Assembly: GCA_040756715.1 (NCBI GenBank)
Contig: JBFLYE010000033.1
Coordinates: 1-6,716, forward strand
Reading direction: 5' to 3'
Length of the DNA: 6,716 nucleotides
Source: JBFLYE01 sp040756715 [NCBI: bacterium]
Lineage (GTDB): Bacteria > UBA9089 > UBA9088
Program-made: the position numbers and the translations under genes
The notes under the pieces: model-generated
What the model was told of the DNA's origin: nothing
Seen by the model: the letters and a program-made list of their open reading frames with translations, nothing else
The model's database searches: none
In this document: positions 927 to 2,759 of the stretch, in pieces
Layout: each line of letters starts with the position of its first letter
Numbering within the stretch: the first letter of the stretch is position 1

Positions 927-2759
927 ATGGAGATTTTAAAGGAGAAAAAGAAAAGGTATTATAAAGTAGAGGATATAGAGCAACCAGAGCTGTTTAGGGA
1001 CTTCTTTCCATATACAGAGATTCCCAAAACATTCTTTGACTTTATTTCTGTGCCAATAGAGATTCCAGAGGAAATATACATTACAGACACAACATTTCGC
1101 GATGGACAGCAGGCAAGGCCACCATATACAACCGAGCAGATTGTTGAGATATACAAGCTTCTTAATAAGCTGGGAAGTGTAATCAGGCAGAGCGAATTTT
1201 TCCTTTATTCTGAAAGGGATAAAAGGGCGGTTATTGAATGTTTAAACTTAAATTTTAAATATCCAGAGGTAACTGGATGGATTAGAGCAAATAAAAACGA
1301 CCTTATCCTTGTAAAAGAGATGAACCTTAAAGAAACAGGCATACTAACATCTGTATCTGATTACCACATATTTTTAAAGCTTAATAAAACAAGGAAAAAG
1401 GCGCTTGATGATTACCTCTCTATCGTCAAAGAGGCATTGGGCAATAATATAATCCCAAGGTGTCACTTTGAGGATATTACAAGGGCTGATTTTTATGGCT
1501 TTGTCATCCCATTTGCTCAGGAATTAATGAGACTTTCTGAAGAGGCAAAAATTCCAATAAAGATAAGGGCTTGTGATACTATGGGGTTTGCTCTTCCTTA
1601 TTCAGAGGCATCCCTTCCTAGAAGCGTTCCAAAGATTATCCATTATCTTATAAAAGAGGCTAGCGTTCCCTCAAAAAGCCTTGAATGGCATGGACATAAT
1701 GATTTTCATAAGGGAGAGATAAATGCTATATCTGCCTGGCTGTATGGTTGCTCTGCTGTCAATGGAACCCTCTTTGGTTTTGGAGAGAGAACAGGAAATA
1801 CACCCATTGAGGCTTTAATCATTGATTATATAAGTATAACAAAAAATAGCAAAGGGATTGATACGAAGGTAATTACAGAGATTGCCGAATATTTCAAGCA
1901 TAATTTAAATACCCATATTTCTCCAAATTACCCATTTGTTGGCTCTGAATTCAATATAACCAGGGCGGGAATCCATATTGATGGCTTACTTAAAAATGAG
2001 GAGATATACAATATCTTTGATACAAAGGAGATATTGAATAGACCACTTGAGGTAGGAATAACAGATAAATCAGGCCTTTCTGGGGTAGTACATTGGATAA
2101 ATACCTACTTTGGCCTCTCTGGTTCCCAGCAAATTGACAAGAGGCATCCTGGGATTTCCCATATTATAAAGTGGATAAATGAAGAATACGAAAGGGGAAG
2201 ACAGACATCCATCTCAAATGATGAAATGCTTAATGAGGTAAAAAAGCACCTTCCTATGCTTATTAAGTCTGATTTTGATACCTTAAAGATAAAGGCAGAA
2301 TACCTTGCATTGCATCTTATAGAAAACCTGGCTTCTTGTGAAGATATAGTCTCTATGGAGCCAGAGAAACAAGAGAAAATTTTAAGGGATTTCATTGAAG
2401 AAAATCCATTCATTCAATTTATATATGTGGTTGATCTGCAAGGACATAAAATAACAAGAAACATTACCCATTCTAAGGATTTAGGAAAATATAAAGAGCT
2501 TAAGGATGAGGAGAATTTTGCGGATAGGGATTGGTTTATAAAGCCCTTGGAGGATGGAAAGACATTTATTTCCAATTTCTATACATCAAGGTTCACATAT
2601 AGGCTTTGTATCACTGTATCTAGCCCGGTAAGAGATAAAAACAATGAAATTGTAGGAGTATTAGGGGCAGATATAATGTTTGAAGAGCTAGCAAAGCTTG
2701 AAGAGGTGGAAGAAAGAGGATGTATGTGTTTAGCTGACCTATATTTAGGCACAAAGTAA
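927..2759 (+). CDS. Re-citrate synthase-like DRE-TIM acyltransferase with C-terminal Cache-like domain
   Basis: A 610-residue enzyme of the isopropylmalate/homocitrate synthase superfamily. It condenses an acyl-CoA with a 2-oxo acid. The overall wording of the sequence (IRQSEFFLYSE, EVTGWIRA, SDYHIFLKLNKTRK, GERTGNTP) matches, from memory, the subgroup containing Clostridium kluyveri Re-citrate synthase, which makes citrate from acetyl-CoA and oxaloacetate in anaerobes lacking the ordinary Si-enzyme. TIM barrel about 50-310: DTTFRDGQQ (54-62) with catalytic Arg58 and metal ligand Asp59, HGHND (255-259) with ligands His255 and His257, and GERTGNTP (286-293) with Asn291. RAGIHIDG (346-353) begins the linker subdomains. 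The LeuA-type regulatory domain is not evident. Instead about 490-590 looks like a Cache/PDC sensor fold: YVVDLQG, DRDWF (533-537), FYTSRFT (551-557), SSPVRD and GVLGADI. No signal peptide or membrane helix is seen, so this domain would be cytosolic. The tail has a CMC pair (599-601). Substrate choice (citrate, isopropylmalate or homocitrate synthase) is inferred only. Family entries are often loosely named isopropylmalate synthase. Confidence 0.85.
   Translation: MEILKEKKKRYYKVEDIEQPELFRDFFPYTEIPKTFFDFISVPIEIPEEIYITDTTFRDGQQARPPYTTEQIVEIYKLLNKLGSVIRQSEFFLYSERDKRAVIECLNLNFKYPEVTGWIRANKNDLILVKEMNLKETGILTSVSDYHIFLKLNKTRKKALDDYLSIVKEALGNNIIPRCHFEDITRADFYGFVIPFAQELMRLSEEAKIPIKIRACDTMGFALPYSEASLPRSVPKIIHYLIKEASVPSKSLEWHGHNDFHKGEINAISAWLYGCSAVNGTLFGFGERTGNTPIEALIIDYISITKNSKGIDTKVITEIAEYFKHNLNTHISPNYPFVGSEFNITRAGIHIDGLLKNEEIYNIFDTKEILNRPLEVGITDKSGLSGVVHWINTYFGLSGSQQIDKRHPGISHIIKWINEEYERGRQTSISNDEMLNEVKKHLPMLIKSDFDTLKIKAEYLALHLIENLASCEDIVSMEPEKQEKILRDFIEENPFIQFIYVVDLQGHKITRNITHSKDLGKYKELKDEENFADRDWFIKPLEDGKTFISNFYTSRFTYRLCITVSSPVRDKNNEIVGVLGADIMFEELAKLEEVEERGCMCLADLYLGTK

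Follow-up and report, generated by a model that had tools for sequence, protein, structure and literature searches.

The window, that is, the whole stretch of 6,716 nucleotides that was analyzed, carries at positions 927..2759 the gene of a fused Re-citrate-synthase-type enzyme of 610 residues, which takes up the whole open reading frame. This gene and all the protein features given below are on the + strand. The HMGL-like (DRE-TIM) catalytic barrel (residues 50-321, positions 1074..1889) was recognized by PF00682 with an E value of 1.1e-28, and its profile matches in the PDB were to isopropylmalate, homocitrate and citramalate synthases. The TFRDGQQ, HGHND and GERTGN stretches of the barrel showed no variation in the six rows of alignment A1. 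A post-barrel region (residues 322-447, positions 1890..2267) lies between the barrel and a Cache/PDC domain (residues 448-594, positions 2268..2708), and an AlphaFold2 model, which covers residues 400-594 only, places helices in that region from residue 408 onward.

A eukaryotic-type Ser/Thr kinase gene, recognized by Pfam, is located just upstream of the synthase gene, at positions 7-909 of the window. By reading only, a similar frame was also found upstream of the gene in another genus of the same family (L005). The kinase might phosphorylate the synthase.

Identification and placement of the Cache/PDC domain

The earlier note had proposed that a Cache domain is fused to the C-terminal side of this DRE-TIM synthase, and both Pfam matches and the predicted fold bore this out. 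PF22673 (MCP-like_PDC_1) matched residues 483-589 with an E value of 6.2e-15 and 56 bits (cut-off 27), and PF02743 (dCache_1) matched residues 478-588 with an E value of 3.1e-14 and 53.5 bits (cut-off 45). The motifs on which that proposal was based were all present: YVVDLQG (500-506), DRDWF (533-537), FYTSRFT (551-557), SSPVRD (565-570) and GVLGADI (577-583). Both Pfam families were matched by all 74 rows of alignment A2, which holds 74 of our 77 fused sequences (L060, L075 and L078 were dropped as incomplete), and the match is therefore not a matter of chance.

Structure prediction and comparison with known Cache/PDC folds also gave a Cache fold. The AlphaFold2 model of residues 400-594, built on the 74-row alignment, had a mean pLDDT of 88.7, and its top match in the PDB was the sensor domain of KinD from Bacillus subtilis (4jgo, and 4jgp with pyruvate), with a Foldseek E value of 3.6e-9 and, in VIA, a Z score of 16.0 and an rmsd of 3.6 over 136 aligned residues. 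The sensor domains of WalK, CtaA, PctC, CitA and Tlp3 followed, with Z scores of 13.8-15.6. A full-length model built on six rows was poor (pLDDT 58) and was left out of the fold comparison. A chance match, or a match to a plain PAS domain, was ruled out by the Pfam matches, the structural match to KinD and the recurrence in 74/74 rows.

The domain had been placed from position 2390. Its identity as a Cache domain stood, but that start is about 120 nucleotides too late, the true start being nucleotide 2268. The structural match to KinD covers model residues 49-195, which correspond to protein residues 448-594, and the domain thus includes a long N-terminal helix that had been taken as linker (residues 449-469, positions 2271..2333; helix 50-70 of the model, inside the KinD-aligned range). 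A PDC fold preceded by a long N-terminal helix, as in the Cache superfamily, is therefore present in the model. The two PDC modules of a dCache_1 domain were not found, as only positions 48-155 of the 240 in the profile were matched and the domain totals about 147 residues. It is a single PDC module resembling the first half of a dCache.

The KinD domain is the sensor of a membrane kinase, whereas the synthase appears to be a soluble protein. The absence of a membrane helix claimed by the earlier note agreed with hydropathy, the sole measure used: the highest 19-residue Kyte-Doolittle mean was 1.08 in the window protein, and a search of the 77 fused rows for a membrane-like segment, begun at the column that contains window residue 1, gave a maximum of 1.64. 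These maxima ruled out a membrane protein, and, since no membrane helix was seen, the Cache domain should be cytosolic. The extracellular placement that is usual for the superfamily, although not strictly defining, is not found here. In the portions available of a survey of Cache families, every family is given as principally extracellular (78% confidently predicted to be so) apart from the small Diacid_rec and YkuI_C, which are principally intracellular; the long N-terminal helix is described there as continuing the first membrane helix (PMC4822843). In the window protein, that helix comes after the catalytic part, not after a membrane helix. The same source, as far as available, presents YkuI_C as the domain C-terminal to the EAL domain of YkuI (2w27) (PMC4822843). 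YkuI gave weak matches to the window domain in structure and profile comparisons; its Cache module is placed on a signaling protein, that of the window on a central metabolic enzyme.

Assignment of the reaction

The reaction was addressed through family models and genome context. All the NCBIfam synthase models listed for the window protein scored below cut-off. The best were those of homocitrate and isopropylmalate synthases, with 137.7 bits for NifV (cut-off 462.9); the LeuA model NF002085 gave 131.2 bits (cut-off 517), and Pfam found no match to LeuA_dimer at E values up to 1. Elsewhere in the genome the superfamily is represented by LeuA and CimA, each of which scores above its NCBIfam cut-off, and those roles are therefore taken. 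The window protein is a DRE-TIM (HMGL-like) synthase that could not be assigned to IPMS, HCS or CimA, and the low NF002085 score, the missing LeuA_dimer and the separate LeuA gene all place it outside LeuA.

We then looked for an Si-citrate synthase. No match to Citrate_synt (PF00285) was detected in the own genome or in any of the 19 genomes of the window's phylum, which are 78-100% complete, whereas 13/14 controls matched. Likewise, 40 of the 50 genomes sampled from the loci (43 with the fused form, 6 with a short form, and that of L080) had no match. This is the pattern of an enzyme that takes the place of the Si-citrate synthase. Twelve of the 19 genomes of the phylum had neither a Citrate_synt match nor a match to the enzyme at an E value of 1e-40.

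Apart from LeuC, the own genome encodes a further aconitase-family protein; apart from LeuB, it encodes an isocitrate-dehydrogenase-like protein, which scores below every IDH equivalog cut-off. Neighboring genes were grouped by single-linkage BLAST clustering within 3 kb on each side, or less at contig ends, and family checks were made on cluster representatives. An aconitase-family, IDH-like or MDH gene was found within 3 kb downstream and on the same strand in 17/77 fused loci; by cluster, aconitase-family genes were found at 12 of these loci, IDH-like genes at 8 and MDH-like genes at 3. As Pfam families do not distinguish enzymes acting on isocitrate from those acting on isopropylmalate, ten of these neighbors, from nine loci, were tested against NCBIfam. 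Three passed the cut-off for NADP-IDH (L023, L065 and L076), two that for aconitate hydratase (L045 and L048) and one that for malate dehydrogenase (L024), while the neighbor in L022 was IDH-like but below cut-off. The large subunit in L023 was over the cut-offs of aconitase/homoaconitase subfamilies, not of LEU2. The cut-off passed by the neighbor in L072 was that of an unassigned hydratase, which the neighbor in L081 resembles; these two belong to the aconitase family but are not aconitases. None of the ten passed a LeuB or LEU2 cut-off, and a leucine operon was thereby rejected for the neighbors tested.

In other clusters, 31 loci (among them L012-L014, L018, L020, L021 and L023) had a gene for aspartyl-tRNA synthetase upstream of the synthase gene and on its strand; Pfam was used to check one representative. 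A histidyl-tRNA synthetase gene lay still further up in 16.

The gene neighbors, the lack of a detectable Si-citrate synthase and the separate LeuA and CimA genes support the Re-citrate-synthase type named in the earlier note, and on this context Re-citrate synthase is the most likely and best assignment. The enzymes of Syntrophus and Clostridium kluyveri are called known, isolated Re-citrate synthases in the part of PMC12016533 available, and no extra domain is described in what was available of its main text. According to the available text of PMC8027424, a gene of Kuenenia has been proposed as a Re-citrate synthase, its identity to the enzyme of C. kluyveri being 55.1%; acetate labeling in Kuenenia culture pointed to Si-type activity, for which the authors suggest a side population as a possible source. 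The window protein has the DRE-TIM domain in common with the C. kluyveri and Syntrophus aciditrophicus enzymes and the Kuenenia candidate, and genome context suggests a similar role.

It is improbable that the enzyme makes homocitrate, methylcitrate or a similar product instead, as a different acyl-CoA synthase of the family under the same kind of Cache regulation. The ranking of the NCBIfam models would fit this, as would the presence of a Citrate_synt match, in one case partial, in 10 of the 50 sampled genomes, 9 of them among the 43 with the fused form. However, those models are far under their cut-offs, true NADP-IDH, aconitate hydratase and MDH genes are among the neighbors, and the phylum is devoid of Si-citrate synthase matches. 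In addition, six short relatives from Planctomycetota, the phylum of Kuenenia, are 59-62% identical to the window protein. A SucC-like CoA-ligase gene, unlike the aconitase-family and IDH neighbors of the fused forms, was found, by BLAST cluster, directly downstream of the short planctomycete enzyme in 6/6 loci (L082, L084, L085, L086, L087 and L089; one checked by Pfam).

Distribution of the fusion

A survey of DRE-TIM homologs for the same C-terminal domain showed that the fusion is common, although not universal. Among the best 80 of at least 566 relatives in the genome_contigs set, a selection that favors full-length matches, 71 were fused and 7 short; L062 ends at a contig end, and L080 was counted as neither because of a masked run. 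Those 71, together with L001 and L004-L008, make up the 77 fused rows. The labels of the fused forms among these best 80 of at least 566 were Thermodesulfobacteriota, Myxococcota, Nitrospirota, Omnitrophota, Spirochaetota, Elusimicrobiota, Lentisphaerota, Fibrobacterota, Margulisiibacteriota, Auribacterota and Pseudomonadota. In the window's own phylum, 7/19 genomes had a match at an E value of 1e-40 or lower, six of them full length and one cut by the contig end.

Larger sets of genomes were surveyed as well. In the family of the Desulfovibrio genome of L076 (G060), 31/59 genomes had a match and 27 of the 31 matches reached residue 589 or beyond. In the phylum of Desulfovibrio, a match was found in 143/297 genomes, and 137 of these reached residue 590 or beyond, two of them without the N-terminal part; of the other six matches, four were short forms, one was cut by a contig end and one was a fragment. 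In Syntrophaceae, the family of L041, 27/51 genomes had a match, full length in 26. Thus, the fusion is widespread, as the earlier note had supposed it might be, though none was seen in Planctomycetota, in which 18 matches in 17/199 genomes all ended at residues 436-456. Some of these planctomycete open frames are longer than the match, up to 773 residues.

In the genome_contigs set, all seven short relatives end within window residues 448-456, at the junction with the N-terminal Cache helix. As enzymes without the Cache domain exist, the domain is predicted to be dispensable for catalysis. Two homologs from the family of G060, L097 and L098, have no detectable Cache match and carry another C-terminal stretch of about 100 residues, which is perhaps a degenerate Cache domain.

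On a tree of the catalytic domain with 91 rows, the fused and short labels changed five times, and most short forms were nested inside fused ones. On an 86-row tree that left out two outgroups, L097, L098 and L103, the AU test did not reject a grouping of all fused rows (p = 0.149). The sample of sequences was without the Clostridium and Dehalococcoides enzymes. With this AU value, a single gain followed by later losses was not established as the history of the fusion.

Predicted ligand pocket and proposed regulation

The pocket was mapped through profile alignments, in which Tlp3 K149, W151, Y167, D169 and D196 correspond to R534, W536, Y552, S554 and D582 of the window protein. In Tlp3, the ligand ammonium is held by Y167, D169 and D196 and the carboxylate by K149, W151 and T170, according to the accessible portion of PMC7277094; the motif residues of PctA are given as R126, W128, Y144 and D173, with Y129 structural, in that of PMC10104139. 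R534 (positions 2526..2528; KinD R131, Tlp3 K149, PctA R126) is a predicted carboxylate contact and was Arg in 72/77 fused rows. W536 (2532..2534; Tlp3 W151, PctA W128) and Y552 (2580..2582; Tlp3 Y167, PctA Y144) are predicted pocket residues; the former was found in 77/77 rows, and the latter position was Tyr in 65/76 and Phe in 9/76. D582 (2670..2672; Tlp3 D196, PctA D173), a predicted ammonium contact, was found in 76/76. S554 (2586..2588) replaces the Asp of the amino-acid motif (Tlp3 D169). The earlier note had pointed out that the Asp of the YxDxxT pattern reads Ser in this protein, and this Ser proved invariant in the family (76/76). All five residues, RWYSD, were present together in 63 fused rows.

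The mean entropy of these five Tlp3 contact positions was 0.23, compared with 1.87 for residues 448-594, and none of 100000 random sets of five positions was as low. The sixth Tlp3 contact, T170, corresponds to position 555, which was not conserved (Arg or Lys in 59/76); with this position added, 6/100000 random sets of six were as low in entropy. Position 529, the counterpart of PctA Y121, was variable (Glu in 28/77), and when both were added the mean entropy rose to 0.90, with 239/100000 random sets of seven as low. Because of S554 and the variable position 529, the domain does not have the dCache_1AA motif (R/K, W, Y, D, D and PctA Y121). It has the R/K, W, Y and distal D in common with PctA and Tlp3 but differs from them as a single, cytosolic module. 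A purely structural domain, serving dimerization or stability without a ligand, is unlikely: a scaffold would not require mapped contacts whose conservation so far exceeds that of the remaining domain, even though PAS and Cache domains can act as dimerization domains, according to the sections available of PMC8694187, and the short relatives manage without one.

Conservation of the predicted pocket in many phyla points to a single class of internal ligand. Nevertheless, ligands may differ between clades, because R534 is replaced by His, Lys or Ser in 5/77 fused rows. The fused rows with Ser or His at this position (L049, L066 and L068, spirochaete records) all come from genomes with a Citrate_synt match, which hints at a changed role in these three.

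The predicted pocket is a hybrid, combining D582 of the amino-acid type with S554 of the KinD type. KinD has R, Y, S and T in common with the window domain at aligned pocket positions, but Phe at the position of W536 and Ala at that of the invariant D582. The substitution that distinguishes the R131A mutant chain of KinD from the wild-type chain falls on the residue that aligns with R534; in KinD, R131 contacts pyruvate. Like the ligand of pyruvate-bound KinD, that of the Cache domain might be a carboxylate lacking an amino group, namely pyruvate, 2-oxoglutarate, citrate or acetate, and the domain would then sense substrate or product, not an amino acid. We regard this as a credible minority reading. 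It is favored by KinD being the closest structure, by the invariant S554 and by the basic residue common at position 555, which could serve a second carboxylate. It is at odds with D582, as this Asp binds ammonium in amino-acid and amine sensors.

Taken together, it seems fairly likely that the protein is the cell's Re-type citrate synthase bearing a cytosolic, single-module Cache regulatory domain that binds a small carboxylate metabolite. We infer the binding, the regulation, the citrate-forming reaction, the identity of the ligand and the direction of its effect from the data above. A small carboxylate metabolite, made from citrate or feeding into it, would enter the Cache pocket, where R534 and W536 would hold its carboxylate, and Y552 and D582 an ammonium or another polar group. 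S554 would confer a specificity unlike that of chemoreceptors. The change upon binding would be relayed by the helix at the start of the domain (residues 449-469), much as the leucine domain does in LeuA, and would alter catalytic activity or assembly. In receptors this helix continues into the membrane; in the window protein it is joined to the catalytic part. Citrate, and from it 2-oxoglutarate and glutamate, would thereby be produced to demand.

As a first guess, ranked slightly ahead of a keto or plain carboxylate, the ligand of this regulatory domain is possibly an amino acid such as glutamate. R534, W536, Y552 and D582, as well as the pathway, are compatible with an amino acid; KinD and S554 are compatible with a keto or plain carboxylate. 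In LeuA, leucine exerts feedback regulation through the C-terminal domain. LeuA and the homocitrate and citramalate synthases likewise have a catalytic barrel followed by further C-terminal parts, in place of which the window protein has a Cache/PDC module. We tentatively suggest, as a proposal that may well prove too specific, that a Cache domain related to extracellular amino-acid sensors moved to the cytosol as the glutamate-family end-product feedback domain of citrate synthase in several phyla of anaerobes, playing there the part of ACT or LeuA_dimer with a motif of its own, R-x-W-F...Y-x-S-x-x-T...D.

No description of a fusion between a Cache domain and a Re-citrate synthase was found in the open-licence literature, nor, in wider searches, among the matches listed, and the passages covered gave no account of the regulation of Re-type citrate synthases. 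The Cache domain, the Re-citrate synthase and the C-terminal regulatory domain on enzymes of this family are each known; their combination in a cytosolic metabolic enzyme did not come up in these searches. As the predicted pocket is nearly unchanged across many relatives, it is probably through the Cache domain that a metabolite of the cell raises or lowers the output of citrate. If this is true, the commonest extracellular sensor fold of prokaryotes serves here to regulate a central metabolic enzyme allosterically, and a new ligand motif is added to those of Cache domains. In sulfate reducers and syntrophs the enzyme stands at the entry to 2-oxoglutarate and glutamate, and the conservation of its predicted pocket makes the question of its regulation directly testable.
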